A model generated the notes under the pieces. It ran no database searches and was not told the origin of the DNA. It saw only the letters and a program-made list of their open reading frames with translations. Source: an uncultured Myxococcales bacterium (GTDB lineage: Bacteria > Myxococcota_A > Bradymonadia > UBA7976 > UBA1532). Taken from it: a DNA stretch of 40,058 nt. The stretch lies in assembly GCA_903847385.1 (NCBI GenBank), contig CAINDO010000097.1:1-40058 (forward strand). The letters are read 5' to 3'. This document shows positions 3,770-31,470 of the stretch, piece by piece. How positions within the stretch are numbered: the first letter of the stretch is position 1; the number at the start of each line of letters is the position of its first letter. The position numbers and the translations under genes are program-made.

Positions 3770-5485
3770 TCAGACGCGGCGGCGGCGGCGCAGCAGGGGC
3801 GCGCCCAGGACGAGCCAGAGGAGCGAGGCGTGGCCGCCGCCCGTGGTGGAGCAGCCGTCGTCGCCGCCGGAGAGCGCGCCGGCGGGCGACTTGCCCGGGA
3901 ACGGCAGGCGCGGCTCGGGGAGCGTGCGGCGGTAGAAGTCCACGGGGACCGTCTGCGACGGCTCGCGACACACGGCGCCGAGTTTGCCATCGGCGCCGAG
4001 CTTGGCGATGGCGACGTAGCCGTGCTCACACAGGCAGGTCTGCTGGGCGTTGAGCGAGAAGCAGGTGCCCTTCTCGCCGCAGGGGTTGGCGATGCAGGGA
4101 TCGGGCAGCGACGGCGGCTGCGTGACGTCGATGACTTCGCCGCCGCCGGGCTCGACGGTGTCGTCGCCGCCGGGCGTGACGGGATCGACGTTCATGCGGG
4201 TGTCCACGCAGGACACGGAGCTGCCGCCGGGCACGTTGCTGTCGACCACGCCGCGGGCGGCCGCGCCGTCGACACAGGCGCAGCCGGGCACCATCACGCC
4301 GTTCTCGTCCGGGCTGGTGATGCACACGCCGCCCTGGCCGCAGGCCACGTAGGCGCAGGGGTCGGGCGCCCCGGCGTTGAAGTCGCCGCAGGCCGGCACC
4401 TGCTCCACCGTCAGGATCCGGTTGCGGTCGACGTCGCCCAGGGCGTCGTCGGCGCCGACGAGGCCGAAGGTCAGGTCGAGGCCCATCTCCTCGGCGGAGT
4501 AGCGGCCGTACAGACGCGTGACGTAGCCGGTGTCGTCGAAGAGCTTGAGGAGCTGCGCCCGCGCCGCCTCGGGGTCCTCGTCGCCGATGGGCTGGGCGAA
4601 CGTGTTCGCCACGGCGTCACGGACGACGTCCGCGGGGGCGGCCGAGTCGGCCACCATGCCCTCGCCCTGGGAGGCGTCGATGGTGCGGGCGACGGCGGCG
4701 GGCCAGTTCGAAGTGGCGCTGAACGGGTCGTAGACGATGTCGGCCGGGTCGACCTCGAGCTCGGGCACGCTGGTCGTGGTGTACCGGCCGGGGCCGAGCA
4801 GGAAGACCTTCACGCCCATCTCGGGCACCGCGGCGATCGAGGTCAGCCGCAGCGGGACCATGGGCGAGGTGGAGTCGTAGACCATCTTCAGCGGCTTGAT
4901 GCTGGTGGTGTCCTTGCCCGGCAGGAGCTTCACCGCCACGAAGTTCAGGCCCTCGCCCAGGTACAGATCAATGAAGGGCACCATGTTGTCGAGGATGCGA
5001 TACCCGTTGAGCCGCAACCACTCGGTGAGCACCTGGCCCTTCGTGGCGGCCACCGTGGTGATCTCGTAGTCACCCACGATCTGGTGGTCGAGGACCTCGA
5101 CGCCGTTGCCCGACTGCGGGGCATCGCCCGCGCCCCCGGCGAAGTCGCCCTCGGCCGCCGAGGGGAAGGGGATCTGACACTCGTCCGGGATCTGGAAGGT
5201 CGGCCCCGTGGCGAGGTCGAGGATCTGGAAGGCCGTGGGCGAGAAGGTGGTCATGTCGCGCGGCACACCGGGCACCGGGACGATCCAGGCGAAGGCCTGC
5301 GGGTCGCCCTGGTACTGGATCTCCACGTAGCTCTCGACCGTGTTGGGCGTCGGCTGCCGGAAGATGATCCGCTCGGCCTGCTGGTCGACCGGGCTGGTGC
5401 TGCAGAAGAACCCGCCGCAGGCCAGGGCCGAGGCGGGGGCGGCGACGGCGGCGAGCGAAAGGGCGGTGGCGAGCAGACGCTTCAT
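3770..5485 (-). CDS. DUF2330 secreted protein with MYXO-CTERM-like tail (paralogue)
   Basis: This 571-residue protein is the upstream member of the tandem pair. It has a signal peptide to about residue 22, CGGFFC at 23-28, then VDQQAERIIF and EIQYQGDPQAFAWIVPVPG, closely matching its neighbour. The DUF2330 region is followed by Cys-rich segments: one with DPCAYVACGQGGVC and an EGF-like one with NPCGEKGTCFSLN. An acidic Gly linker and a GCSTTGGG + hydrophobic + RRRRR end form a MYXO-CTERM-like tail. The product is therefore expected on or outside the outer surface. The ATG at 5485 has GGAG 9 bases upstream. A small hairpin lies 36 bases before the start. No catalytic motif is visible and the function is unknown. 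Confidence 0.9.
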   Translation of the reverse strand: MKRLLATALSLAAVAAPASALACGGFFCSTSPVDQQAERIIFRQPTPNTVESYVEIQYQGDPQAFAWIVPVPGVPRDMTTFSPTAFQILDLATGPTFQIPDECQIPFPSAAEGDFAGGAGDAPQSGNGVEVLDHQIVGDYEITTVAATKGQVLTEWLRLNGYRILDNMVPFIDLYLGEGLNFVAVKLLPGKDTTSIKPLKMVYDSTSPMVPLRLTSIAAVPEMGVKVFLLGPGRYTTTSVPELEVDPADIVYDPFSATSNWPAAVARTIDASQGEGMVADSAAPADVVRDAVANTFAQPIGDEDPEAARAQLLKLFDDTGYVTRLYGRYSAEEMGLDLTFGLVGADDALGDVDRNRILTVEQVPACGDFNAGAPDPCAYVACGQGGVCITSPDENGVMVPGCACVDGAAARGVVDSNVPGGSSVSCVDTRMNVDPVTPGGDDTVEPGGGEVIDVTQPPSLPDPCIANPCGEKGTCFSLNAQQTCLCEHGYVAIAKLGADGKLGAVCREPSQTVPVDFYRRTLPEPRLPFPGKSPAGALSGGDDGCSTTGGGHASLLWLVLGAPLLRRRRRV

Positions 5486-10838: not shown

Positions 10839-12302
10839 ATGCGTCTGTCGTCCGCCGCCCTGCTGTTCGCCCTTTCGACCGCGCCCGTCGCGCCCGCGCA
10901 GGCCTTCTGCGGCTTCTTCGTGTCCGGCGCGGACGCGAAGCTGTCCAACAACGCGTCGCAGGTCGTGCTGATGCGCAAGGACAACCGCACGGTGATGACC
11001 ATGTCCAACAACTACCAGGGCCCGCCGCAGGACTTCGCCATGGTGGTGCCCGTGCCCACGGTGCTGCAGCAGAACGACGTGAAGACGCTGCCGCCGGACG
11101 TGTTCGAACACATCGACCAGCTCTCGGCGCCGCGCCTGGTGGAGTACTGGGAGCAGGATCCCTGCTACATCCCGCCGCCCATCTATCCGATGAATTTGCC
11201 TGTCGTGGTGAATATGGCGCCCACAGGAGGCTCGCCCAAACGCGCGGCCGACCACGGCGTGACCATCGAGGCCAAGTTCGCCGTGGGCGAGTACCAGATC
11301 CTGATCCTGTCGGCGAAGCAGGCCACGGGCCTGGAGACGTGGCTGAAAGAGAACAAGTACCGCATCCCCGAGGGCGCCTCGACGGCGCTGGCGCCCTACA
11401 TCGCCAGCGGCATGAAGTTCTTCGTGGCCAAGGTCGACATCGCGAAAGTCCGGCGGGACGCGCACGGCGCGGTCGTGTTGTCGCCGCTGCGCTTCAGCTA
11501 CGAGAGCAACGAGCTGCGCGTGCCCGTGCGGCTCGGCCTGCTCAACGCCGAGAGCAAGCAGGACCTGATCGTGTACGTGCTCCACCCGGAGTCGCGGTTC
11601 GAGTCCTCGAACTACCCCAACGTGTTCGCGCCCACGAATCTGGAAGTCGTCGACGAGGTCCGCAACGGCTTCGGGTCGTTCTACGCGCAGCTCTTCGACG
11701 AGACGCTGGCGGCCCACGGCAACAAGGCGATCGTGACCGAGTACGCCTGGCAGACGACGAGCTGCGATCCGTGCCCGGTGCCGCCGCTAAATCCCAGCGA
11801 CCTGTACACCCTGGGCGCGGACGTGCTGGTCGGCGGCCCCAAGCCGACGGACGACGGCCCGATGCCCGGACCGCGCGGGCGGTCGATGCCGCCGGGCGGC
11901 TTCTTCGGCGGGTTCTCGTCGTGGGTGCTGACGCGCCTGCACACCCGCTACGACAAGACGACGCTGAGCGAGGACATCACGCTCGTGCAGGCCAAACCCG
12001 TGGTCGGCGGCCGCGCGCTGGGGGACGGCAAGACCCTCGAGGGCGCCGGTGAGGTGAAGATGGACTCGGTGAACAACTTCCAGGGGCGCTACATCATCCG
12101 CCACTACTGGGAGGGCGCCGTCGCCTGCGAGAACCCGGTCTACGACCGCTGGGGCGGCCCGCCGGGCGGGGATCGGCCGCTGCAGATGGCCACGGATCTG
12201 GCCAACGCGCCCCGCGGGCAGGTCACGCTGAAGACGGCCGTGCGCAGCAACCTGCCCCAGCTCGGCCTGCCGGGCCTGCCGACGCCCAAACGGGGCAAGT
12301 AG
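10839..12302 (+). CDS. DUF2330 secreted protein (third copy, no sorting tail)
   Basis: The 487-residue protein has a Sec signal (cleavage near APAQA-F, residue 22), then FCGFFVSG in place of CGGFFC. It shares NNYQGPPQDFAMVVPVPTVL with the family, so it is DUF2330. Unlike the two copies at 1937 and 3770 it lacks the EGF-like Cys region and the MYXO-CTERM-like tail; it ends in a soluble basic stretch (TPKRGK). It is probably a periplasmic or secreted protein. The start at 10839 has GGAG six bases upstream. It is transcribed away from the esterase. Its stop lies nine bases from the convergent ABC permease stop. The function is unknown. Confidence 0.88.
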   Translation: MRLSSAALLFALSTAPVAPAQAFCGFFVSGADAKLSNNASQVVLMRKDNRTVMTMSNNYQGPPQDFAMVVPVPTVLQQNDVKTLPPDVFEHIDQLSAPRLVEYWEQDPCYIPPPIYPMNLPVVVNMAPTGGSPKRAADHGVTIEAKFAVGEYQILILSAKQATGLETWLKENKYRIPEGASTALAPYIASGMKFFVAKVDIAKVRRDAHGAVVLSPLRFSYESNELRVPVRLGLLNAESKQDLIVYVLHPESRFESSNYPNVFAPTNLEVVDEVRNGFGSFYAQLFDETLAAHGNKAIVTEYAWQTTSCDPCPVPPLNPSDLYTLGADVLVGGPKPTDDGPMPGPRGRSMPPGGFFGGFSSWVLTRLHTRYDKTTLSEDITLVQAKPVVGGRALGDGKTLEGAGEVKMDSVNNFQGRYIIRHYWEGAVACENPVYDRWGGPPGGDRPLQMATDLANAPRGQVTLKTAVRSNLPQLGLPGLPTPKRGK

Positions 12303-17279: not shown

Positions 17280-18044
17280 TTGCACCCCGAGCTCTTCCAC
17301 GTCGCCGTCTTCGGCCAACCCCTGAGGTTCGGATCGTACGGCGTCCTGGTCGTGCTCGCCCTCGCGCTCGGCCTGGTCGTGACCCGGCTCCGCGCCCGCC
17401 GCTTCGGCCTCGAGCCCTTCGATGCCTTCGCGGCGACCGCCATCGCCGCCGTCTCCGGCTGGACGGGCTCCGTCCTGCTCGACGCGGCGGTGCAGTGGCG
17501 TCAGGTCCTGGCGGGCCAGTACCCCTGGGACCAGCCGGGGCTGGTCTTTCTGGGGGGTCTGCTCGGCGGGGTCGCGGGCGCTTGGGCGTACACGCGCGCC
17601 TACGGCGTGTCGCTGCTGGCCGTCGCCGACGCCGCGGCGCCGGGCATCGCGCTGGGCCACGCCGTCGGGCGGGTCGGCTGTCTGCTCGGCGGCTGTTGTT
17701 ACGGACGCCCGTGGGCAGAGGCGCCCGCTCGGGTGATCGAGCTCGCGGGCGGGGCCCGGCATCCGGTTCAGCTCTACGAGGCGGCGCTCCTGGTGCTCCT
17801 CGCCGGCGGGCTGCTCGCGCTGTCCCCGCCACGTCGTCGACCGGGGGCGATCTTCGCCCGATATCTCGTCGGCTATGGGGTGTTGCGGATCGTGACCGAG
17901 CTCTTTCGGGGCGACGACCAGGAGCGGGGTTTCCTGATTCCCGGCGTCTGGTCCACCTCGCAGACCCTCTCGCTCGTCCTCGTGGCGGCCGGGGTGATGG
18001 GGCTGCGTGCGGGCCGGCGGCGGGCGGCCGCACCTCCGGCCTAG
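17280..18044 (+). CDS. Lgt-like prolipoprotein diacylglyceryl transferase family protein
   Basis: The 254-residue inner-membrane protein has about seven hydrophobic segments. Recognisable Lgt features are an N-terminal 'lr.GsYGvlv' segment, the central GRVGCLLGGCCYG motif, HPVQLYEA, and GVLRIVTELFRGDD near the end (the second essential Arg region). Lgt moves diacylglycerol from phosphatidylglycerol to the lipobox Cys of preprolipoproteins. In classical Lgt the central motif reads 'GRiGNFiNGE'; here the Asn is Cys and the motif is Cys-rich. This may therefore be a specialised or divergent Lgt rather than the housekeeping enzyme. A TTG start is used (17280). Five predicted lipoproteins are encoded in the window. 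Confidence 0.75.
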   Translation: MHPELFHVAVFGQPLRFGSYGVLVVLALALGLVVTRLRARRFGLEPFDAFAATAIAAVSGWTGSVLLDAAVQWRQVLAGQYPWDQPGLVFLGGLLGGVAGAWAYTRAYGVSLLAVADAAAPGIALGHAVGRVGCLLGGCCYGRPWAEAPARVIELAGGARHPVQLYEAALLVLLAGGLLALSPPRRRPGAIFARYLVGYGVLRIVTELFRGDDQERGFLIPGVWSTSQTLSLVLVAAGVMGLRAGRRRAAAPPA

Positions 18045-18051
18045 CCGCCGT

Positions 18052-21000
18052 TCAGCGGGACGAGCCGGGCCCGGATGTCCCCCGGAGCAGCGTCAACGTC
18101 TCCTGCGCATCAATCCCCTGGGCCGTCGTCGCGAAGCGCCCGTAGGCCTCGGGGTCGATGGTGCCCCCCTCCAGCACGAGGCGGCTCTCGATGCGGAAGA
18201 TGCCGGGTTCGACCTGCTCGACCCGGCGGTCGAATGCGACCGGGCCGTCGGCGATGTGCACGCTCGGGGCGGCGTCCATGCGCAGGTCGGGCGGGCCCTC
18301 GAGCTCCACGACGACGTGCTGGTGCGTGGGCAGCTCGATCAGCATGGGCGTGCGGCGCGACGGCCGGGCGGCCCAGGCCCGCGCGGGGCTCACGGGGAAC
18401 AGACCGAGCGACAGCGTGTCTCCGGTGCGCGCGGTGAAGGCGTAGCGCAGCACGAGCGGCCCGTCCGGGCGCTCGCCGGCGACGGGATCCTCGAACCGCG
18501 TGACGGTGCCCGCGCCCAGCACCGGCAGCAGCAGGCGCTCGGCGACCTTGGGGCGCGCCTCCGGGTCCAGCCGGGCCAGGTAGTCGCCGATCACGATGGC
18601 CTCCTGGCCGCTCAGCGTGTCCTCGACCTCACCCGTCAGCGTGCCGTCCGGGGCCCAGCGCAGCTTCAGGCGCACCTCGCGCGCGTCGTCCACCGGACGC
18701 GTCGTCGGCAGCGTGACGACGCCCGCCGGGCCCTCCGGCGGCCAGGCCACGAGCGCGTCACCGCCCAGGAACCCGAAGGGGAAGAACCCCACGGGCGCGC
18801 CCTTGGGGGCGGGGTCGACCAGCGTCGTGAAGTCGGGGCCGAGCGCGATGAGCGGGTAGGGGAAGTCGGCGATCTGCGTGAACGGCGCAGAGTCCACGTG
18901 CACCTTGGGGCGCGACAGCAGCAGCCGGTGGGGGAGGCCCGCCGCCTCGAGCGCCACGGAGAGCACGAGCGCGCGGTGGCCGTGACCGGACGACCACATG
19001 CGCGGCGCGTCGTCCGAGATCAGGCCGGTCTGGCCGTCCACGCGCAGGCGCACGGCGGTGGCCAGTCGGGCGGCGCGCTCGAGGGGCGTGCCCTCGCCGG
19101 CCTGCGCCTCTGCCCAGGTGTCGAACTCGGCGTTGCGCTGCCGCCGCGCGAGCACGCGGTCGCGGGTGTAGTCGAGGTCCTCGGACAGGGTGACGTTGCG
19201 CCCGAAGCGCACCGAGGGCAGGTACATCGGCTCGGGCACGGCGTCGTCCTCGGGCGGCACGACGGGCGTCCGTTCGAGCGCGACCCGCAAGCCGTTGCGC
19301 CCCAAGGGTTCCAGGCGCACCGGCGTCGCCTCGGGGGCGCCCGCGAGGCGCTGCATCTCGGGCACGGCGTCGTCGGGGCCGAAGACCTCGGCGCGCTGAC
19401 GGAACGCCGGCAGGGCGTGGTTCTGCAGGCCGATGCGCGGCGTCAGGTAACCCGTATCGTAGAGGTAGCCGTTGTCGCCGGGCTCCAGGTACGCCGCGAC
19501 GATGTAGTCGCCGATGGCCACGTCCGGCACGGACAGGCTGTCCTTCTCGGGCATGTCCTCGGCGTAGAGCCGGCGGCCGTCCGCCTTGCGGTTGAACACG
19601 GCCACGGCCTCGGCGCCCTCGGGCAGGTCGACCTCGCCGAAGTTCTCCGCGGCCTCGCGCGTGCGCACGGCCAGGATCTCGTGCACCCAGCGCAGCCGCC
19701 GGCCGTCGGGGAAGTAGATCGTCGCGCCGTGGTCGAGCACGCGCACGGCGGGGCCGTCGTAGACCTCGGGGTGTGCGCTCGCGTCGGCCTCGTAGGCCGT
19801 GATGACGGCGTCCGTGTCCTGCAGCAGCGGCCCGAAGAAGTGCGAGGCGGGCTCGGCGAGCAGCAGCTCCCGCGCCTCGCGGGCCGTGGGGAATGCGACC
19901 ACGAGGGCCTGCAGCGCGGCCTTCAGCTCTGCGGCGGGGCCGAGATCGGCCGCTTCGAGCGCCGCCCCGGGGTCGCGATCGGCCTCGGCGCGGTGTTTGG
20001 CCAGGGCACGGGCCTCGTCCAGGCGACCGAGGGCGACGAGCGCCCGGTGGCGAGCCTGGAGCACCTTGCGGTCGTCGGCGGCGGGCCCGGGGAGCGCGTC
20101 CAGGCGGGCGAGGGCCTCGGCGGGGCGGTCGAGCTCGAGCAGCAGGTCGGCGGCCTCGCGGCCCCGCCCGCAGGACACGAGCGGCTCCACCATGCGCAGG
20201 CGGCCCGACGTGTTCCCGCGCGCGCCCTGCAAGGCGATGCGGTCGTCGAGCAGGTCGCAGGGGCGGGCCGCCGAGCGTTCGGCGCGGTCGAGATCCGTCG
20301 CCGCCTCGTCGTTCCAGCCCAGGCCGAAGTGGACCTGGAACGCCTCCCGATGCACGGCCGTGTCGTGGAGGTCGGGGGCGTCGAGCAGGGGCGCGAGCCA
20401 GCCGTGCGCGGCCTCGAGATCGCCGCCCTGCCGCGCCAGTCGCGCGAGCTCGAAGCGGCCGCGGCGGGGCATGGCGGCCAGCGCGTCGTGCCAGGCGGCG
20501 TGCCGCGCGTCCCGGGCGCTCCCGGCCCCGAGGGAGGCGTCCGTGGCCAGCGCTTCCGCGCGCAGCAGGCGGCCGATCACCGTGTCGGGGGCCCCCTCGA
20601 GCCAGCGCGCGACGCCCTCGCGATCCTCGTCCTCCAGCGCCAGCATCGCGGCCACCAGCGCGGCGGTCGGCGTCGCGGGGCGCCGCGGAGGGGTGTCCTC
20701 GGCGGGCCACAGCGTCACGCTCGGCACGCGGCTCGACGCCCACACCAGCATCAGCGGGCCGGCGCCGGGGGCCGTGAAGCGCAGCACGCCCGCCGGCGTG
20801 CGGTCCGGCGGCGTCGCCAGGACGAGCCGGCCGTCGCGGAACGCCATGAGTCGGCCCGGATCGCGGATCTCCAGGTGCGCCGGGCCCGGCGGGAGCGTGT
20901 GCACCGAGATGACCAGCCCGTCGGGATCGGGCTTCGGGGGGGTGGTCGACAGCGCCCAGGTCTTGCCGAGCGCCGCGAGCGTGTCCGGCCCGGTGTGCGT

Positions 21001-21612
21001 CGGCGCGGAGAGCAGGAGCCGGCGCGCGTCCAGGTAGGGCAAGAACGAGACGCGCAGCGTGTGCCGCGAGGCGAGGGGTGGCTTCGGCCGGGCGAGCTCG
21101 GGGCCGAGCAGCGCGTCCAGCTTCGCCTCGCCGTCGGTCACGTCGCGGGCGGCGGACTCGGCCCAACGCCAGGCCAGGTGCGCCTCGGCGCTGCCGGGGG
21201 GGAGCGCGCCGTAGGCCAGGGCGGCGGCGCGCAGGCGCGTGGCGGCGTCCAGGCGCTCGTCGGCCAGCCGGGCCATGAGCAGGCGCGTGCGGGCCAGATC
21301 CAGCGCGCGGTCGGCCCCGGCGGCGGGATCCAGGGGCGCGGGCCGGCTCGCGGGGCCGGTCGGGCTCGAGGGCGGCGCCGGCGGCGGCCCCGTCTCCACG
21401 CGGCGCGGCTTCGCGGCCAGAAACGTCGTCGCCAAGGCGTCGCCGTGGCCGTGGTACCAGTCCCAGAACGCGCGGTCGGCGGCCCCGGCGCCGGGGTCGA
21501 GCGCCCAGCGGGCGGCGGGGGGCTCTTCGCGAGGGGGCGCGCCGGCGCAGGCGCTCAGCGTGAACGCGAACGCGATGGCCAGGGCCGGGGCGGTGAAGAC
21601 GTGGACTCTCAT
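18052..21612 (-). CDS. Giant DUF3857 lipoprotein with degenerate transglutaminase-like domain
   Basis: The 1186-residue protein begins with a lipobox (FTLSAC, Cys 22). An N-terminal beta-rich part is followed by a long helical TPR-like middle (roughly residues 320-630), a DUF3857 beta domain (about 650-830), a transglutaminase-like domain (about 830-960) and a C-terminal beta domain. At the place of the catalytic motif GDCKDKA of its neighbour the sequence reads SSGHGHRA (residues 874-881), so the Cys is absent. The catalytic His position reads PYPLIAL, and only the Asp in LVDPA is kept. It is therefore probably a non-enzymatic homologue. Its ATG overlaps the stop of the upstream paralogue (ATGA at 21609-21612), so the two proteins are likely made together and may interact. 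Confidence 0.8.
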   Translation of the reverse strand: MRVHVFTAPALAIAFAFTLSACAGAPPREEPPAARWALDPGAGAADRAFWDWYHGHGDALATTFLAAKPRRVETGPPPAPPSSPTGPASRPAPLDPAAGADRALDLARTRLLMARLADERLDAATRLRAAALAYGALPPGSAEAHLAWRWAESAARDVTDGEAKLDALLGPELARPKPPLASRHTLRVSFLPYLDARRLLLSAPTHTGPDTLAALGKTWALSTTPPKPDPDGLVISVHTLPPGPAHLEIRDPGRLMAFRDGRLVLATPPDRTPAGVLRFTAPGAGPLMLVWASSRVPSVTLWPAEDTPPRRPATPTAALVAAMLALEDEDREGVARWLEGAPDTVIGRLLRAEALATDASLGAGSARDARHAAWHDALAAMPRRGRFELARLARQGGDLEAAHGWLAPLLDAPDLHDTAVHREAFQVHFGLGWNDEAATDLDRAERSAARPCDLLDDRIALQGARGNTSGRLRMVEPLVSCGRGREAADLLLELDRPAEALARLDALPGPAADDRKVLQARHRALVALGRLDEARALAKHRAEADRDPGAALEAADLGPAAELKAALQALVVAFPTAREARELLLAEPASHFFGPLLQDTDAVITAYEADASAHPEVYDGPAVRVLDHGATIYFPDGRRLRWVHEILAVRTREAAENFGEVDLPEGAEAVAVFNRKADGRRLYAEDMPEKDSLSVPDVAIGDYIVAAYLEPGDNGYLYDTGYLTPRIGLQNHALPAFRQRAEVFGPDDAVPEMQRLAGAPEATPVRLEPLGRNGLRVALERTPVVPPEDDAVPEPMYLPSVRFGRNVTLSEDLDYTRDRVLARRQRNAEFDTWAEAQAGEGTPLERAARLATAVRLRVDGQTGLISDDAPRMWSSGHGHRALVLSVALEAAGLPHRLLLSRPKVHVDSAPFTQIADFPYPLIALGPDFTTLVDPAPKGAPVGFFPFGFLGGDALVAWPPEGPAGVVTLPTTRPVDDAREVRLKLRWAPDGTLTGEVEDTLSGQEAIVIGDYLARLDPEARPKVAERLLLPVLGAGTVTRFEDPVAGERPDGPLVLRYAFTARTGDTLSLGLFPVSPARAWAARPSRRTPMLIELPTHQHVVVELEGPPDLRMDAAPSVHIADGPVAFDRRVEQVEPGIFRIESRLVLEGGTIDPEAYGRFATTAQGIDAQETLTLLRGTSGPGSSR

Positions 21613-24600
21613 GGGCCACCTCGGCGCGTGGACACCTGCGCGCTGGCGTCGAGCGCGCGGTCGATGGCGGTGAGCCACGCCCGGAAGGCCGGGTAGGCCT
21701 CGGGCGCGATGCGGGTCGCGGTCAGGCGCCAGGTCGTCTCCAGCACCCACGCGCCGGCGCTCTCGGTGGCGACCGCGTGGAACTCGCCGAAATCACTGGG
21801 TAAATGTACGTCGGGGGGCAGGGAGCCCCGGGCGCCCGCGGGCCGCGCGATCTCCAGGCGGAAGCTCACCGTGCGCGGCGGCCCGGGCGTGAGCGGGCGG
21901 CGACGCTCCGCGGCGTGCGCGAAGGCGTCCACCAGTCGCCAGGGCTGCCCGGCGCGCGGCAGACGCCAGGCGTCCCCGGCCCGCTGCAACGGTGGCATCT
22001 CGATCGTCGCGCGGGCGACGAAGGGGTCGTCCGCCGGGCGCAGGCCCTCGACCTCGAGCGCGTCGGCGGCCACGCCCGGGAACCGCGCGGCGAGCGCGCT
22101 CTGCAGGGCCTCGCGCCGGCCGGCCTCGGCCTCCATCGTCTGACGCTGCGCCGTCGCGAAGTCGCCGCGCAGCCGCCACTCGGCGGTGCCGCGCAGCCGC
22201 CCGTCGGCCTGCAGGGCGAGCTTCAGGAGCCAGTGCTCTCCGGCGGCATCGGCGTTGGGGAACGGCAGCGTGCGCAGCGTGGTGTCCAGCCCCACGACGA
22301 AACCCGAGGCCCCCTGGTCCGGCGGCGGCAGGGCGAAGGGATCGTTCCGGTCCTGGGTCGGATCGACGAAGCGGTCCAGGCCCGGCAGGTAGACCAGCGC
22401 GTGGTCGAACAGCGCGAAGCTGGCCGGCTGGGCGGCCACGTTGCCCTGGCCGCGGGTCCGCACCAGCACGAGCTGCGCGTCCACGTCCACGGCGCGCAGC
22501 AGCGCGATCAGCAGCGTCGCCTTGTCCTTGCAGTCACCGTAGGCCCGCGCCAGCGTCACGTGGGGCGACTCGGGGCGGAAGCTGTGGGTGCCCAACTCGA
22601 GGCCCACGTAGCGGATGCCCGAGGCCACGGGGTGGTACAGCCGGCGGACCTTCTCCTCGGCGGTGCGCGCGTCGCCGATGAAGGCGCGCGCCTGGGCCGC
22701 CAGCTTGTCGTCCGGCGTGTCGCGGCCGGCGACGAGGCGGGCGTAGCGGCGCCCTGCATCCGCCCAGCTCTCCAGAGTGCTGACGTGCACGTGGGCGCGC
22801 TCCGAGGCGTAGCCCGGGGCGTAGGGCTCCGGCGAGCGGCCCGGCACGGCGCGGGCCTCGAACCGCAGCGGGACGGAGGTGTCGACGCGCAGTTCGCCGG
22901 CCTCGACGTGGCTCTGCAGCGGCAGCGCCGACTCGAACTCGACGATGGAGATCGCGCGCGGCGAGGCCTCCTGCAGGTACGCCAGCTCGCCGAAGTACCC
23001 GGGGAACGACGGGTCCGGGTCGAGATCGGCCACGCGCCACGCGACCTCGATCACGTCCCCCGGCGCCACGCGCGGGAACGTCAGCACCTCGGCCCGCAGG
23101 TCGTAGTACAGGCGCCACTGTGGCGCGGACAGGTCGCGATCGGAGCGCCGCGGCGACACGGGCGGCTCGCCCGCGCGCAGGAGCCGGGCCACGTCCACCT
23201 CGAGCCGCTGGGTCCCCGGCGTGTAGGCGAGCTCCCAGGTGCCGAACTGTCGCGCGCCCTCGGCGGTGAGGATGCGCACCACACGCCGCACCTCGCGGAC
23301 GGCCAGGCCCGTGGGCGCCACGACGGCCCGGGCGTGGTGGTAGAGCACGTGGGCCGCGGCGCCGGGCGGGTCGGTCGCGCCGAGCAGGGACTCGACCGCC
23401 GGCCCGCTCACCGGGCGCTTCTCCGTGCGGCTCGTGGCGTCGCGGTAGCGCTGCAGCTCGGCGTCGCCCGGATCGATGGCCAGCGCGCGGTCCAGCGTGT
23501 CGATGGCGGCCGCGGTCTCCCCGGCGGCGATTTGCATGCGGGCCTTGCGCTCCAGCAGGTTCGGCTCGTCGGGCACGAGCGCCAGCAGGCCGTCCAGGCG
23601 TTTGCGGGCGGCGTCGCGGTGGCCCTCGAACTGCTCGATGTCGATGGTCTCCAGCAGGTAGCCCCACAGCTCCGGGCGCGCAGCGCCGATGCGGTCGAGC
23701 GTGGCGAGCGCACCCGCGAGATCCCCCCGCGCCCGAAGCCCGGCGGCCCATTGGTACAGCTCGTCCGCGGTGGCCTCGCCGCTCTCGACCTCGGCCTGCA
23801 GCGCGGTGAAGAGCGCGTCCGTGCGCCCGGCGGCGCGCAGGGCGTCGCGCCACGTCGAGCGCGCCAGGGCGGGGCCTTTGGGCGCGCCGGCGCGCTCCAG
23901 GAGCGCCACGGCCTGGTTGGGCAGCGAGAGCTCTTCGAGCACGATGGCCTCGAGCTTCAGGGCCGGCCAGAAGTCCGGCGCCTCGCGGCGCAGCGTGTCC
24001 AGCACCTCGCGGGCGGCCACGAAGCGCCGCCCGTGGAAGTGGGCCCAGGCCTCGTCCAGGCGCAGGGCGAGGTCGGCGTACACGTCCTCGAAGCGCAGCG
24101 GGCGCGCGGCCCGGTGGCTCGTCCGCACGGGGCCCTGCTCCGCCTCGGGCAGCAGGTCGAGCCAGGCGCGCAGGCTGCGCGGCCCCGGATCGCCCTCCCA
24201 GGCGCTCTCCACGGCCACGCGCGGCAGCAGGCGGTCGGCGTCCGGCAGCGCGGCGGCCTGGGCGTAGTCGGCCAGCGCGCGCAGGCCCACGGCGTCCGGC
24301 GGGTCCTTGGACTCGGCCACCGCGAGCTGGGTATACAGATGTGCAACCACGTCGGCGGCCGGGGGCGCGACCTCGGCGGGCTCGGGCACGGGGCCCCAGG
24401 GGTCGGGGTGGGCCTCGACGCCCGGCACGGGCGCGCCGCGGGCGTCGGTGACGCGGCAGAGCAGCCGCCAGGCGCCGCCGTGCTGCCGGACCTCGACCAC
24501 GAGCCGGTTGTCTCCCGGGCGCAGCGCCACCGGCACCGCGACTTGATCGAGCCACGCCGGGTGCTCCTTCTCCGAGCGGTGGACCTCGTCGCCATTGAGC

Positions 24601-25190
24601 CAGACGGTGATCGCGTCGTCGTAGCCGAAGCGCAGGACGGCGGGGCCGCCGGGGGCCACCAGCCGCGTCGCCACCGTGGCGCGTGTCTCCTGGGCGGGCC
24701 GCAGGAACGCCTCGAGCCACAGCTCGCCGCCCCCCGCGCCGGCCGGGTAGGCCCGGAACCCCGCGGGGTCCAGGGGGGCCGTGGACTGGGCCGGGGCCTC
24801 GCCCGGGCGCATCGCGAACCCATCGAGCAGGCCCAGGGCCGCCACGGCGGCGCGCACCGTCTCGCGGTCCAGGCGGCGCTCGGCGCGCTCGCGCAGCAGC
24901 CACCACCCCATCGCGCGGTAGAGCGGGGTCCCGCGGGCATCCTGCGCAGCGGCGCGCAGTCGGGCCTCGTGCGCCGCCCGGGGCAGCCAGCCGGCGAGGC
25001 GGTCCAGCCGCCACAGCTCCACGGGGCCCAGGGGCGTGCCCCGGTTCGCCTCAGCGGCGCGCCACAGCCGATCGGCCTCGAGCGACACGGGATCGCGGCT
25101 CGCCGGCGGCTTGGGAGCGGCCGGCGCGGCCAGGGCGGGGGCGCTCAGGCACAGGCCGAGCGCGAGCAACCAGAGGAGCGGACGATTCAT
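21609..25190 (-). CDS. Giant secreted DUF3857/transglutaminase-like protein, catalytic triad intact
   Basis: The 1193-residue protein has a signal peptide (residues 1-22, ending ALAAP). Residues about 145-275 form a carbohydrate-binding-like beta-sandwich (ITVWLNGDEVHRS, GDNRLVVEVRQHG). A TPR-like helical part follows to about 620, then DUF3857 (about 625-800) and a transglutaminase-like Cys-protease fold. The latter has the motif YGDCKDKATLL (Cys 887), a His in ALFDHALVYLP and an Asp in DRFVDPT, so the Cys-His-Asp triad is complete. The last 200 residues are a DUF3858-like beta domain. DUF3857/transglutaminase proteins are exported; proteolytic or amide cross-linking roles are proposed but mostly untested. 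It is divergent from the kinase gene (103 bases between) and first in a two-gene operon with its inactive-looking paralogue. Confidence 0.85.
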   Translation of the reverse strand: MNRPLLWLLALGLCLSAPALAAPAAPKPPASRDPVSLEADRLWRAAEANRGTPLGPVELWRLDRLAGWLPRAAHEARLRAAAQDARGTPLYRAMGWWLLRERAERRLDRETVRAAVAALGLLDGFAMRPGEAPAQSTAPLDPAGFRAYPAGAGGGELWLEAFLRPAQETRATVATRLVAPGGPAVLRFGYDDAITVWLNGDEVHRSEKEHPAWLDQVAVPVALRPGDNRLVVEVRQHGGAWRLLCRVTDARGAPVPGVEAHPDPWGPVPEPAEVAPPAADVVAHLYTQLAVAESKDPPDAVGLRALADYAQAAALPDADRLLPRVAVESAWEGDPGPRSLRAWLDLLPEAEQGPVRTSHRAARPLRFEDVYADLALRLDEAWAHFHGRRFVAAREVLDTLRREAPDFWPALKLEAIVLEELSLPNQAVALLERAGAPKGPALARSTWRDALRAAGRTDALFTALQAEVESGEATADELYQWAAGLRARGDLAGALATLDRIGAARPELWGYLLETIDIEQFEGHRDAARKRLDGLLALVPDEPNLLERKARMQIAAGETAAAIDTLDRALAIDPGDAELQRYRDATSRTEKRPVSGPAVESLLGATDPPGAAAHVLYHHARAVVAPTGLAVREVRRVVRILTAEGARQFGTWELAYTPGTQRLEVDVARLLRAGEPPVSPRRSDRDLSAPQWRLYYDLRAEVLTFPRVAPGDVIEVAWRVADLDPDPSFPGYFGELAYLQEASPRAISIVEFESALPLQSHVEAGELRVDTSVPLRFEARAVPGRSPEPYAPGYASERAHVHVSTLESWADAGRRYARLVAGRDTPDDKLAAQARAFIGDARTAEEKVRRLYHPVASGIRYVGLELGTHSFRPESPHVTLARAYGDCKDKATLLIALLRAVDVDAQLVLVRTRGQGNVAAQPASFALFDHALVYLPGLDRFVDPTQDRNDPFALPPPDQGASGFVVGLDTTLRTLPFPNADAAGEHWLLKLALQADGRLRGTAEWRLRGDFATAQRQTMEAEAGRREALQSALAARFPGVAADALEVEGLRPADDPFVARATIEMPPLQRAGDAWRLPRAGQPWRLVDAFAHAAERRRPLTPGPPRTVSFRLEIARPAGARGSLPPDVHLPSDFGEFHAVATESAGAWVLETTWRLTATRIAPEAYPAFRAWLTAIDRALDASAQVSTRRGGP

Positions 25191-25293: not shown

Positions 25294-26820
25294 ATGAGCA
25301 CCTGCCCTCACTGCCACGCCGAGGTCCCCAGCGACGCGCTCTGTTGCGTCCACTGCGGCCGCACCCTGGTCACGGACACGATCCAGGACCGAAGCACGCA
25401 GGAGCGGCTGCGCGAGATGCTCGAGGCCAAGGGCCTGCTGGTGGGCCCCGTGCCCTCGCCCGCGCCGTTGCTGGGCCCGACGCTGGTCGAGGGCGCCATC
25501 CCGCCCGGCGCCATCATCAACGCCAACGGCGGCATGGCGCAGATTCTCCCCCTCCGCACGGACCAGGAGCAGGAGCTCTTCTCCCTGCCGTTCGAGGAGA
25601 CCATGTCGCCGGCGCCGGCGATCGAGATCCCGCCGCCCACCCCCACGCCGCAGCCCTCGGTCCTGCCGCCGGAGACGCCGATCCCCGTGTCCGTGGCCAG
25701 CGGACACCCGGACCGCATGCCGCAGGCCGGCGATCACGTCGAGCAGTACGAGATCAAGGCCGAGATCGGTCGGGGCGGCATGGGGCGCGTCTACCTGGCC
25801 AACCACGTCCTGACGGGCCAGGAAGTGGCCCTGAAGATGCTCCTGCCGCAGTTCTCCAACGAGCCGCGGCTGCGCGCGCGTTTCCTCAACGAGGCCAAGG
25901 TGCTCGCGCGCCTGGAGCACCCCAACCTGGTGCCGCTGCTGGGGTTCTTCGAGCAGGGCAACCGGGCGTTCATCGTGATGCCCTACATCCGCGGCATCAC
26001 GCTGGAGCGCATGCTGCGCCGCCAGGGGCGCCTTTCGCTGGAGATCATCGCCAGCCTCTTCGATCAGCTCTGCGCGGCCATCGAGCACGTGCATCGGCAC
26101 GACTTCCTCCATCGCGATCTCAAGCCCTCGAACGTGATCGTGCGGGGGGATGGCCGCGTGATGGTCACGGACTTCGGCATCGCGCGGGTCATCGGCGCCG
26201 AGAAGATGACGCTGCCGGGCATGGTCGTGGGCACGGCCGAGTACCTGGCGCCGGAGCAGGCCTGCGGCGCCTCGCGGGACGACAAACGCAGCGACGTCTA
26301 CTCCCTGGGCGTGCTGCTGTACGAGATGGTCACCGGGCAGGTGCCGTTCCATCACCCGAACGCCGGCGAGGTCCTGCAGCGGCAGGTCTCCGCGCCGCCG
26401 CCGCCGCCGCGCACCATCGTGCCGGACCTCACGCCCGAGCTCGAGTCCGTGATGCTGCGCGCCCTGGCCAAGGACCCGGACAAGCGCTTCCAGACGCCCC
26501 AGGAGTTCGCCAACGTGCTGCGGACGACCCTGTGGCCCAAGCCCTCGACGCAGCTCGTCGCCGAGCGTGAGCTCGCCGCGCAGGCCCCCCCGGCGCCGGG
26601 ACGCGCCGGCTCGGGCGGCAGCCTGCCGCGCGTGAAGTCGCTCGGCGCGGGCACCGCCGCGCAGCCCACGCCCGCGCCCTCGGGGGTCGGTGAGGCGCCC
26701 GCGCCCGAGACCGCGCCGAAGCGCCCCTCCGCGGGGGAGGCGCTGCGCTGGGTCGCCATCGTCGTGGGGCTCGCCGGGCTCGGCGCGGCCATCGGCGCCC
26801 TGCTGCGTCTGCGCACCTGA
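25294..26820 (+). CDS. Hanks-type Ser/Thr protein kinase with N-terminal zinc ribbon
   Basis: The 508-residue kinase begins with a CPHC...CVHC zinc ribbon (Cys 4, 7, 18, 21) and a Pro-rich linker to about residue 145. The kinase domain (about 152-415) is complete: GRGGMGRVY glycine loop, Lys 181 in VALKML, HRDLKPSN with catalytic Asp 275, DFG at 293-295, an APE-type motif (LAPEQ) and SDVYSLG. A Pro/Ala-rich stretch follows, then one hydrophobic helix at the very C-terminus (about 485-505) with no extracytoplasmic domain, so it is probably tail-anchored in the inner membrane with the kinase in the cytoplasm. Targets are unknown; the divergent DUF3857 operon is a candidate by proximity only. 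The ATG at 25294 is chosen because it begins the zinc ribbon. Confidence 0.92.
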   Translation: MSTCPHCHAEVPSDALCCVHCGRTLVTDTIQDRSTQERLREMLEAKGLLVGPVPSPAPLLGPTLVEGAIPPGAIINANGGMAQILPLRTDQEQELFSLPFEETMSPAPAIEIPPPTPTPQPSVLPPETPIPVSVASGHPDRMPQAGDHVEQYEIKAEIGRGGMGRVYLANHVLTGQEVALKMLLPQFSNEPRLRARFLNEAKVLARLEHPNLVPLLGFFEQGNRAFIVMPYIRGITLERMLRRQGRLSLEIIASLFDQLCAAIEHVHRHDFLHRDLKPSNVIVRGDGRVMVTDFGIARVIGAEKMTLPGMVVGTAEYLAPEQACGASRDDKRSDVYSLGVLLYEMVTGQVPFHHPNAGEVLQRQVSAPPPPPRTIVPDLTPELESVMLRALAKDPDKRFQTPQEFANVLRTTLWPKPSTQLVAERELAAQAPPAPGRAGSGGSLPRVKSLGAGTAAQPTPAPSGVGEAPAPETAPKRPSAGEALRWVAIVVGLAGLGAAIGALLRLRT

Positions 26821-27518: not shown

Positions 27519-28895
27519 ATGAGCAAAGCGAAAGCGGTCGCGTTCGCGTGCCAGCGATGCGGCAACCGGACCCCCAAGTGGCTGGGGCGCTGCAGCGCCT
27601 GCGGCGAGTGGGGCACCGTCGTCGAAGAGGTCGACCTGCCCACGGGGCCTGGGGGCGGCCGGTCCGGCTTCGGCTCCCTCGCCTCGACGAAACCCCAACG
27701 GCTCGCCGAGGTCGGGGGCGAACACCTGCAGCGCCGCGAGACCGGCATCGCCGAGCTCGACCGCGTGCTGGGCGGCGGCCTGGTGCCCGGCTCGCTCATC
27801 CTGGTGGGCGGCGACCCGGGCATCGGCAAGTCCACGCTCATGCTCCAGGCCGGGGAGCGGCTCGCCCAGGCCGGGCTGCGCGTGCTGTACGTCACCGGCG
27901 AGGAGAGCCCCGAGCAGACCCGCCTGCGCTTCGACCGCCTCGGCGCCAAGGCACACGATCTGTGGCTGGTGGCCGAGACCTCCATCGAGCGCATCGAGGC
28001 CCACGTGAACGAGCTCGACCCGGCCGTGCTGGTGGTCGACTCCGTGCAGACGCTCTTCACCGAGGCGCTGAGCTCGGCGCCGGGGAGCGTCGGGCAGCTT
28101 CGGGAGGTCACCGCGCGGCTCCTCGGGCTCGCCAAGGGGCGGCACATGGCCACCTGGCTGGTGGGCCACGTCACGAAGGACGGCGCCATCGCCGGGCCCC
28201 GCGTGCTGGAGCACATGGTCGACACGGTGCTGTATCTCGAGGGTGAGCGGGGCCACGCGTTCCGCATCCTGCGCGCGGTGAAGAACCGCTTCGGCTCGAC
28301 CAACGAGATCGGCGCGTTCGAGATGCGCGGCACCGGGCTCGACGAGGTCCGCAACCCCTCGGCGCTGTTCCTCGCCGAGCGCGTGACGGGGGCCGCGGGC
28401 AGCGTCGTGGCGGCGAGCTACGAGGGCACGCGGCCCGTGCTGGTCGAGGTCCAGGCGCTCGTCTCGCCCTCGCACCTGGGCACGCCGCGGCGCACCTCGA
28501 TCGGCGCCGACTCGGCCCGGCTGGCGCTGCTGCTGGCCGTGCTGGAGAAGAAGGCCGGCCTGTTCTTCTCGGGGAACGACGTCTTCGTCAACGTCGCGGG
28601 CGGCCTGCGGCTGGACGAGCCCGCGGTGGACCTGGCGATCGTCGCGGCGCTGGCCAGCAGCCACCGCGATCTGGCCCCGGACGGCGGGACCATCGTCTTC
28701 GGCGAGGTCGGCCTGGCCGGCGAGATCCGCGGGGTGGTCGGGGCGGACGCGCGGGTGGCCGAGGCGCGGCAGCTCGGCTTCGCCCGGGCCATCGTGCCGG
28801 CCCGCAATCTGGACCGGCTGGGCGATCAGCAGGGCATCGAAATCGTCGCCGTGTCGACCGTCCGTGAGGCCCTGGATCGCATGGGATTTGTGTGA
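27519..28895 (+). CDS. radA: DNA repair protein RadA (Sms)
   Basis: The 458-residue cytoplasmic ATPase drives branch migration in homologous recombination alongside RecA. All diagnostic parts are present: the N-terminal C4 zinc finger (Cys 11, 14, 25, 28), Walker A GGDPGIGKST (residues 97-106), Walker B LVVDSVQ, the RadA-specific KNRFG motif (255-259), and a C-terminal Lon-protease-like domain (about 300-458) that normally lacks protease activity. The length is typical of the family. It begins one base after the stop of the small envelope gene, so translational coupling is likely. Confidence 0.97.
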   Translation: MSKAKAVAFACQRCGNRTPKWLGRCSACGEWGTVVEEVDLPTGPGGGRSGFGSLASTKPQRLAEVGGEHLQRRETGIAELDRVLGGGLVPGSLILVGGDPGIGKSTLMLQAGERLAQAGLRVLYVTGEESPEQTRLRFDRLGAKAHDLWLVAETSIERIEAHVNELDPAVLVVDSVQTLFTEALSSAPGSVGQLREVTARLLGLAKGRHMATWLVGHVTKDGAIAGPRVLEHMVDTVLYLEGERGHAFRILRAVKNRFGSTNEIGAFEMRGTGLDEVRNPSALFLAERVTGAAGSVVAASYEGTRPVLVEVQALVSPSHLGTPRRTSIGADSARLALLLAVLEKKAGLFFSGNDVFVNVAGGLRLDEPAVDLAIVAALASSHRDLAPDGGTIVFGEVGLAGEIRGVVGADARVAEARQLGFARAIVPARNLDRLGDQQGIEIVAVSTVREALDRMGFV

Positions 28896-29022: not shown

Positions 29023-31470
29023 ATGTCTCCATCCGAGTCGAATGCCCAGTCCGTTGCTTGGCGCCGCATGTGTCGTCCCCTTGTGTGCGCCGCGCTCCTC
29101 GCGCTGACGGCCCTCCCGGCCCACGCGCAGGACGCACCGGCGCCGGCCGGACCCGCGGCGCCCGTCGAGATCCCGACGCCGGCGGCCGTCGAGGCCGCGG
29201 CGCCCGCCGAGACCCCGACACCGGCGCCCGTGGCCACCCCCGCGGGTCCCGCCCCGGCGGTCACGGTCGAGTCGACGCTGCCCGGTCCGCTCGTCGCGGC
29301 GCTGCCCGAGCTGCGGCCGGCCTTCGACGCCCTGGCCGCGGGCAAGCTGCCCCGCGCCCGGGAGCTCTTCGACCAGTGGATCGCCACCCACGGGGCCGCG
29401 CCCCAGGTCGGCGCCGTGCGGTTCCTTCGGGCGCGGTGCGACGCCCGCCTGGGCAACCTGAGCGCGGCGGACGCCGGGTACCGTGAGGCCGAGGCCGCCC
29501 TGCCCGAGCTCGCCGACTGGCTGAAGGCCGAGCGCGCGCGCCTGGCCCTGCGGGACGGTCGCTTCGAGCAGGCGGACGCGCTCGTCGAGGCCCTGTCCAC
29601 GAGCAACCGCGAGTTCTTCGGCCTGGTGATCGAGCGCGCGCAGCGCCAACTGCGCGGCGGTCGTCTCATGGACGCGCTGACCACCCTGGGCCGCCTCACG
29701 CCGTCGCTGAGCTTCGCCGGCGAGCGCGCGCTGGTGTCCCGACTGCTGGCGGACGCCCGCCTGGCCCTGACGGGCGATCGCGCCGCCTGGTACGCCCGCG
29801 TGGCGGACATCTGGCGCAGCTGGCCGAAGACGGACACCGGCCGGGATCTCGAGCCCCTGCTGATCGGGGCGGTGGCCGACACGAGCGTTGCCGAGCCCCC
29901 CCTCACGCTGGACGAGCTCGTCGACATCGCCCTCCGACGGTCGCTGAACGGCGGGCCGAAGGCCGCCGAGTCCGTGACGAAGGCGCTGCAGAGCCGCTAC
30001 GCGCGGCGCATCACCGGCCTGAGCGTCCTGCTCGACGGGCAGGCCACGGTGAAGAAGCGCGCTGCGGCCGTGCGCCAGGCCATCGCGGCCGTGCTGCCCT
30101 CCGTGACCGAGGCCGCCATTCGCGACGGTCTTTGGGACGTCGAGGCGCGCAGCCTCCGCCAGAACGAACGCTACGACGACGCGCTCCTGGTCTACGAGCG
30201 CATCGGCCGTGAGGGCGGCGCCTCCGTCCGTCGGGCGGCGGCGCTCCTCGAAGGCGGTCGCATGGCGCGCCGCATGGGCCGCGTGACGCCCGCCCGCTGG
30301 TCGTTCGACCGCTTCCTCGCCCGGCACCGGGAGTTCCCCGAGGCCCGCGCCGAGGCGCTGTGGAACCTGGGCTGGTTCGCCTGGCGCGACGGCCTGCTCG
30401 ACGAGGCCGACCACTTCTTCCGGCTGATCACCATCGAGACGCCGGAGACGACGGACTCCTCGAACCGGACCTACGCCGAGCGCGCGACCTACTGGCGGGC
30501 CCGCGTGCTGCACCGCCGCGACCGCGTCGACGAGGCGCGGACCCTCTGGGCGGAGATCGAAAAGCGCTACCCGCTGTCCTACTACGCCAACCTCTCGGCC
30601 GCCTGGCGCCGCCGCACGGGGGATGCCACCGACACCCTGCCGCGCCCGGCGAAGGACGAGCCGAAGACGCCGCCCACCGTCGCGTCGTTCAAGGCCGTCG
30701 AGCCGGCCGCCGTGCCCGCGCTGACGCTCGTGCGGCTCGGCCTGCCGGACGAGGCGCGTCAGCTGCTGCGCCACGCGCACCGCCAGGAGCGCCTCGGCAT
30801 CACCGGCGTGCAGTTGCTCTCGGCGCTGTATCGCGCGGATGGCAACGAGTCCCTGGCCCACTGGGTGGTGCAGGGCGGCGACCCGCTCACGGCGCCGCCG
30901 GTGCAGGATGCCCGCGGCCGCTGGCTGTCGGCGTTCCCCCGGCCCTTCGGCGACATCGTGGAGAAAGAAGCCAAGGAGCACGCCATCGACCCGCTCATCA
31001 TCTGGTCGATCATGCGGCAGGAGAGCGGCTTCCGCTCCGAGGCCCGCAGCTCGGCCAAGGCCCACGGCCTGATGCAGGTGCTGCTGCCCACGGCGCGCCA
31101 CGTGGCCAAGGCGATGCTCGGCGAGAAGCCGCCGTCACTGGCCAAGGTCTACACACCCGGCGCGAACGTACACTACGGCGCCGCCTACCTGCGGCACCTG
31201 CTCGACCGCTACAAGGGCAACCCGGCGCTCGCCTTCGCCGGCTACAACGCCGGCCCCGGCGCCGTGGACAAGTGGCTCAAGCGCTTCGGGCCCATCGCCT
31301 GCGACGAGTTCGTCGAGGAGATCCCCTACGCCGAGGCGCAGGGGTACGCCCGCAAGGTCATCCGCAGCTACGCCGCGTACACGTACCTGTACGGCGCGGA
31401 CGACAGCCCGTTCCTCGAGCTCCCGTTGAAGCTGCCGACGCGCGGCAGCGCGGTCGCCCTGCGCGACTGA
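29023..31470 (+). CDS. Soluble lytic murein transglycosylase (SLT family), 815 aa
   Basis: The 815-residue exported enzyme is predicted to cleave the MurNAc-GlcNAc bond of peptidoglycan, releasing 1,6-anhydro products. The signal peptide ends near LPAHAQ (about residue 36). A Pro/Ala-rich linker follows, then a long alpha-helical superhelix of TPR-like repeats (about 85-620), as in Slt70. The catalytic SLT domain (about 640-790) carries the Glu in MRQESGFR (Glu 667), AHGLMQVLLPTA, YLRHLLDRY and AGYNAGPGAV. It is larger than E. coli Slt70 because of the linker. An internal ATG at 29068 would also leave a signal peptide, but 29023 has the GAGGTG ribosome site. The end is eight bases from the convergent glpK stop. 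Confidence 0.93.
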   Translation: MSPSESNAQSVAWRRMCRPLVCAALLALTALPAHAQDAPAPAGPAAPVEIPTPAAVEAAAPAETPTPAPVATPAGPAPAVTVESTLPGPLVAALPELRPAFDALAAGKLPRARELFDQWIATHGAAPQVGAVRFLRARCDARLGNLSAADAGYREAEAALPELADWLKAERARLALRDGRFEQADALVEALSTSNREFFGLVIERAQRQLRGGRLMDALTTLGRLTPSLSFAGERALVSRLLADARLALTGDRAAWYARVADIWRSWPKTDTGRDLEPLLIGAVADTSVAEPPLTLDELVDIALRRSLNGGPKAAESVTKALQSRYARRITGLSVLLDGQATVKKRAAAVRQAIAAVLPSVTEAAIRDGLWDVEARSLRQNERYDDALLVYERIGREGGASVRRAAALLEGGRMARRMGRVTPARWSFDRFLARHREFPEARAEALWNLGWFAWRDGLLDEADHFFRLITIETPETTDSSNRTYAERATYWRARVLHRRDRVDEARTLWAEIEKRYPLSYYANLSAAWRRRTGDATDTLPRPAKDEPKTPPTVASFKAVEPAAVPALTLVRLGLPDEARQLLRHAHRQERLGITGVQLLSALYRADGNESLAHWVVQGGDPLTAPPVQDARGRWLSAFPRPFGDIVEKEAKEHAIDPLIIWSIMRQESGFRSEARSSAKAHGLMQVLLPTARHVAKAMLGEKPPSLAKVYTPGANVHYGAAYLRHLLDRYKGNPALAFAGYNAGPGAVDKWLKRFGPIACDEFVEEIPYAEAQGYARKVIRSYAAYTYLYGADDSPFLELPLKLPTRGSAVALRD

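Follow-up and report, generated by a model that had tools for sequence, protein, structure and literature searches.

A linked pair of giant DUF3857-transglutaminase-like proteins in Myxococcota, one with an intact triad and one a lipoprotein lacking the nucleophile

Two overlapping genes and their surroundings

The window analysed here, a stretch of 40,058 nucleotides from an uncultured Myxococcales bacterium (contig CAINDO010000097.1 of assembly GCA_903847385.1), carries on its minus strand two very long genes joined by an ATGA stop/start overlap (21609..21612). The upstream gene (21609..25190) encodes P1, a giant DUF3857-transglutaminase-like protein of 1193 aa with a cleavable signal peptide and an intact Cys-His-Asp triad, and the downstream gene (18052..21612) encodes P2, a 1186-aa paralogue and putative pseudoenzyme in which the lipobox (LSAC22) is followed by TPRs, a DUF3857-like domain, a dead transglutaminase core and a DUF3858-like C-terminus. 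An earlier note, made from the letters of this DNA, had described a pair of this kind, and both the gene layout and the distinction between a lipoprotein and a partner with a plain signal peptide and no lipobox were borne out. The overlap suggests coupling of the two genes, not a particular stoichiometry. The single domain order proposed for both proteins holds from the TPR region on (from about P1 residue 387) but is not established before it, where P1 has a helical segment (residues 34-119) ahead of a beta-sandwich (169-261).

With positions computed from the gene starts, the P1 triad lies exactly where it had been placed: Cys887 (codon 22530..22532, minus strand), the first residue of the core helix, in GDCKDKA; His930 (22401..22403, minus strand) in FDHALVYL; and Asp943 (22362..22364, minus strand) in FVDPT. 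The only other Cys residues of P1 are at positions 14, within the signal peptide, and 245. At the site of the lost nucleophile P2 has His877 (codon 18982..18984, minus strand), immediately before an invariant Gly878, and it retains the Asp of the triad (D933). Its Cys inventory is limited to residues 22 (the lipobox), 452 and 481, so the core is without any thiol and no Cys is found elsewhere in it. Cys 452 and 481, located in the TPR region (window approximately 20170-20259), are conserved in some 80% of the P2 proteins of the phylum, a pattern of conservation possibly like that of a disulphide outside the cytoplasm.

The pair is directly adjoined, in convergent orientation to P2, by a gene for LGT, the prolipoprotein diacylglyceryl transferase (17280-18044); its position beside a lipoprotein gene is probably a coincidence, the arrangement not being conserved. 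On the other side lie a divergent Ser/Thr kinase gene (25294-26820), RadA (27519-28895; named from sequence and domains) and an SLT transglycosylase (29023-31470). We considered these neighbours as a clue to function and set them aside, RadA and the transglycosylase being local and kinases, which recur elsewhere, being too common to count. No neighbour was found to follow the pair across families; because the adjoining genes vary, the pair looks self-contained. The window also holds three genes for DUF2330 proteins (1937-3718, 3770-5485 and 10839-12302), two of them in tandem, and a DUF2330-like gene lies near the pair in the loci of a few other families as well.

Homology of the two proteins and the fate of the active site

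In Pfam, P1 matches DUF3857 (PF12969) at residues 627-765 (5.7e-18, 66 bits against a cut-off of 24.6) and Transglut_core (PF01841) at residues 834-917 (9.8e-10, 39.1 bits against a cut-off of 23), along with TPRs. The window P2, searched alone, returned zero matches in Pfam or NCBIfam, and BLASTP of P1 against P2 was marginal (E=0.016), so that the homology of the two proteins needed separate proof. This was provided by profiles built from orthologues of the same order, ten sequences each (A1 for P2 and A2 for P1), which hhalign aligned over 706 columns with a probability of 99.8 and E=1.3e-29; with about 100 sequences per side, the C-terminal halves reached a probability of 100 and E=1.1e-59. 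Further, when more divergent sequences were included, 28 of 38 P2 homologues matched DUF3857 directly (best 8.9e-14), six matched DUF3858 and three matched PF01841, weakly. Judged by these matches, P2 is a fold relative of Transglut_core and not an active member.

An AlphaFold2 model of P2 residues 592-1186, computed from an alignment of the window and related loci only, gave a pLDDT of 87 and a pTM of 0.79 and found its best PDB match in 3KD4 (E=1.1e-24). The model of P1 (pLDDT 82.9, pTM 0.58) likewise matches 3KD4 best (6.5e-23), and in both models the alignment spans the whole DUF3857-transglutaminase-C-terminal part. Structure 3KD4 is BDI_1141 of Parabacteroides distasonis, a "putative protease" of the DUF3857/DUF3858 type; at 505 residues it differs from P1 and P2 in having neither TPRs nor an N-terminal beta domain. 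We found no literature on the function of BDI_1141/3KD4, and we know of no dead partner for it. Chance likeness of P1 and P2 is ruled out by the profile E-value of 1e-59 together with the common best fold match, and from the profile comparison and the predicted model we conclude that P2 is a genuine DUF3857-transglutaminase-DUF3858 protein. The predicted secondary structures equate C887 with H877 (each of which opens the core helix), H930 with Y919, and D943 with D933. Around the nucleophile site hhalign favours a three-residue gap; under either alignment Cys is absent from P2. Thus the alignment of the cores proposed as a check in the earlier note does match the two folds, and it leaves the window P2 core without a Cys.

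To survey the active sites, 379 Myxococcota genomes were scanned, in addition to a scan of the class, and P2 proved to be present far outside the family. Eight related loci from the named genome collection are MAGs. In about 100 loci and the loci of the order, open frames were sorted with both profiles; the P2 of one genome (G006), missed by BLAST, was identified by reading frame. The resulting set comprised 98 P1-type and 114 P2-type proteins, the latter spread over 111 genomes and 25 family-level groups, and since the loci were picked via P2 matches it cannot give the frequency of P1 without P2. Among the P1 proteins, one of which is truncated, the triad is complete throughout (Cys 98/98, His 97/97, Asp 97/97). 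The nucleophile site of P2, by comparison, is occupied by R, S, T, E, K, Q, A, H or other residues, never by Cys (0/113), and the Gly immediately after it, G878, is invariant (113/113). An intact protein paired with a partner lacking the nucleophile is thus a fixed trait of the pair and not a peculiarity of one genome. The claim that P2 has lost both Cys and His is correct for the window protein; in P2 as a whole the His is retained in 12 of 113 and the Asp in 40 of 113. Within this sample of sequences, therefore, nucleophile loss is universal in P2 and the remaining triad residues have drifted. No Cys occurs anywhere in the core of 60 of the 113 P2 proteins, that of the window among them.

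These counts bear on whether P1 is an enzyme at all. As the family has no known activity and both P1 and P2 are long TPR proteins, one could imagine that P1 is non-catalytic in practice, that both proteins serve a structural or scaffold role and that the triad is kept for folding. We regard this as very unlikely, given that GDCKD, His and Asp do not vary among the 97-98 sequences compared, that conservation in P1 is much the highest in the core and that the model puts C887 at the head of the core helix, where an active papain-like fold would have it.

Linkage, descent and the conserved site of P2

Eleven of the 114 P2 loci reach a contig edge before the position of P1, leaving 103 that could be evaluated. 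In 93 of these P1 lies directly upstream of P2 on the same strand, and a further locus with a broken P2 (L175) brings the total to 94/103; among the 93 adjacent pairs, 69 overlap by four bases, as in the window, and 80 overlap at all. The two genes are apart in just nine of the 103 loci (L067 and L068 of family f2; L185, L188, L189, L195, L206 and L214 of f14; L222 of f3), with P1 always elsewhere in the same genome, so the common separation that the earlier note had named as evidence against a pair was not what we found. Separation in at least three lineages does mean that physical linkage is not obligatory. In the two f2 loci P2 sits between penicillin-binding-protein-like and D-3-phosphoglycerate-dehydrogenase-like genes, as named from sequence only.

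At the level of whole genomes, counted by hand with E<=1e-90 defining a strong P2 and E<=1e-120 a strong P1, a strong P2 is present in 161 of the 379 Myxococcota genomes, and 156 of the 161 also have a strong P1. The remaining five are draft genomes: G090 has another match, resembling a fragment of P1, beside P2, and in G008, G105, G130 and G364 P2 is at a contig edge. Conversely, a strong P1 occurs with a weak P2 in seven genomes, several of these cases being at a contig edge or having a weak P2-like match downstream. At least seven genomes (G176, G195, G218, G233, G250, G279 and G372) have a second, paralogous copy that is likewise a pair of P1 and P2. The asymmetry in export signals is equally consistent, in keeping with the claim that the dead partner is the anchored one: of 107 evaluable P2 proteins, 82 satisfy a strict lipobox pattern and nearly all of the rest show a lipobox on inspection, as opposed to 2 of 88 evaluable P1 proteins. 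We infer an outer-membrane location for P2.

In a tree of 94 sequences, made by a quick method and containing long branches, P1 forms one clade and P2 another (SH-aLRT 99 and 97). A third clade consists of single proteins of about 1300 residues with the DUF3857-transglutaminase arrangement and an intact GDCKDKAVLF (L073:1506-5408, L043-L050). When separate P1 and P2 trees were computed for 35 common genomes, 20 of 32 splits agreed, as compared with 0.2 expected and a maximum of 3 for shuffled labels. The pair is therefore ancient and inherited jointly, keeping in mind that mirrored trees do not by themselves show contact. The dN/dS of the dead core of P2 (0.09-0.34) exceeds that of the live core of P1 (0.03-0.15), and the dead core is under weaker but clear purifying selection; with frames open in more than 100 genomes and values well under 1, P2 as a decaying pseudogene is ruled out.

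Where the two proteins are conserved differs markedly. Of 49 columns conserved at 90% or more in P1, 25 fall in the transglutaminase core, whereas P2 has 20 such columns, of which one (G878) is in the core and 11 are in the DUF3857 region (approximately residues 610-805; 19198..19785, minus strand, with approximate boundaries): D627, G637, H644, E660, G679, K690, G701, D702, P760, E788 and P799. H644 and D627 are each conserved in 111 of 113 P2 proteins, E660 in 106 and K690 in 102. In these alignments the conserved site of P2 has shifted from the core to DUF3857, and we read this domain as the probable docking or ligand-binding part of P2.

The same residues could also mean that P2 has remained an enzyme but works through a new site, one relocated within the core or one made up of D627, H644, E660, K690 and D702 in DUF3857. 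The conservation of the first four is unexplained by the transglutaminase core, and active-site migration has a precedent in the papain-like superfamily (PMC10318531). Against this stand the cores without any Cys, including that of the window P2, and the lack of a conserved Ser, Thr or other substitute at the nucleophile site. DUF3857 is, to our knowledge, not a catalytic fold either, and we consider a relocated activity improbable. An explanation that deserves a little more credit, although we still judge it unlikely, is that P2 is an independent lipid-anchored receptor whose dead core and DUF3857 bind ligands of the same class, for instance to gather or shield them, so that P1 and P2 act in sequence without touching. 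That the conserved residues of P2 are in DUF3857 and not in the core, and that the genes are separate in nine loci, would fit such a receptor; the strict co-occurrence, the translational overlap in most genomes and the duplication as a unit are better accounted for by joint assembly.

Proposed role of the pair and related systems

At the gene level P1 and P2 are paralogous and genetically linked, with one site intact and one dead, the genetic pattern of an enzyme-pseudoenzyme heteromer. As the linkage has been strictly maintained and the pair is ancient, the two are probably one two-part machine. The explanation we favour, and hold to be reasonably probable, is that an exported cysteine acyl-enzyme (P1) and a lipid-anchored pseudoenzyme partner (P2) form a two-gene unit in which P2 holds, activates or feeds P1. 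Accounted for in this way, P1 would be a hydrolase, protease or amide transferase of the transglutaminase-like superfamily, its catalysis being suggested by the preserved triad, and its substrate would presumably be an envelope protein or peptide. P2 would descend from a DUF3857-transglutaminase ancestor, having lost the nucleophile and kept the fold, and would now act, probably, through its DUF3857 domain and TPRs, tethering P1 at the membrane in a physical complex and either activating P1 or presenting substrate to it. Counting against this are the mirrored trees, which shared vertical descent would produce as well, the separation of the genes in several lineages and the His kept in a minority of P2 proteins. 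The earlier note, which had proposed an obligate complex made in equal amounts and acting on a surface substrate, was right in its anatomy and is partly supported in its interpretation; the equal amounts and the surface substrate would at most be suggested by the overlap and the lipobox. A bolder version, which we offer as a tentative and rather doubtful possibility, makes the pair a two-protein machine of the envelope, ancient and shared throughout the Myxococcota. The giant enzyme would then depend on the lipid-anchored pseudoenzyme, whose function would have moved out of the dead core to a conserved, P2-specific DUF3857 site (D627, H644, E660, K690, D702), and the two would make up a novel type of anchored cysteine acyl-enzyme complex with a substrate in the envelope.

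Inactive paralogues can also inhibit, and P2 might be an anchored mimic that keeps the active site of P1 closed until needed, a role for which joint expression from a single mRNA would be convenient. The lipid anchor, the TPRs and the conserved DUF3857 of P2 fit recruitment at least equally well, and we attach very little probability to inhibition. Returning to the favoured reading of P2 as a partner serving P1, the likely working model is LbcA-CtpA of Pseudomonas aeruginosa, in which an exported protease depends on a TPR lipoprotein that activates it and delivers its substrates (PMC8764530). It resembles the proposed arrangement in that a TPR lipoprotein serves an envelope protease, and by this analogy P2 may be an activator or substrate presenter. 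CtpA, however, is a C-terminal processing protease to which LbcA is no paralogue, while P1 and P2 are transglutaminase-like paralogues of each other; P1, a Cys transglutaminase-like protein, does not belong to the LbcA-CtpA type and may work alike. Catalytically inactive transglutaminase-like proteins are represented by EPB42 and FBXO21 (PMC10318531), which, like P2, belong to the superfamily and have kept the fold; unlike P2, they are human proteins, are not bacterial lipoproteins and are not encoded by genes that overlap the gene of an active paralogue.

Our search of the literature on DUF3857, DUF3858, 3KD4 and bacterial transglutaminase pseudoenzymes found no work on such a pair, and DUF3857 is named, in passing, by a single one of 5.39 million papers: DUF3857 proteins are widespread yet almost unstudied. 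A pair that recurs through much of a phylum and always has one dead partner offers a first handle on the role of DUF3857 enzymes; the dead partner points to DUF3857 as the likely binding domain, and more than 100 sequences make this bacterial enzyme-pseudoenzyme pair accessible to evolutionary analysis. Lone DUF3857-transglutaminase proteins from within and outside the phylum (L073, with an intact GDCKDK, and those on Aureibacter and Agrobacterium plasmids) share the core with P1 and P2 but are encoded by single genes with no dead partner adjoining. Outside Myxococcota, four plasmid regions were examined, and the two with usable annotation carry single DUF3857 genes. A second, short DUF3857 pair is present in the same genome as the window, on another contig (C133; L070:1689-5596). 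Its first gene encodes a 646-aa DUF3857 protein with an intact active site (GDCKAK, FNH, VDP) and its second a lipoprotein of about 650 residues without a GDC motif and with FDT replacing FDH. If confirmed, this pair would mean that active-dead pairing arose or persisted more than once in the superfamily.
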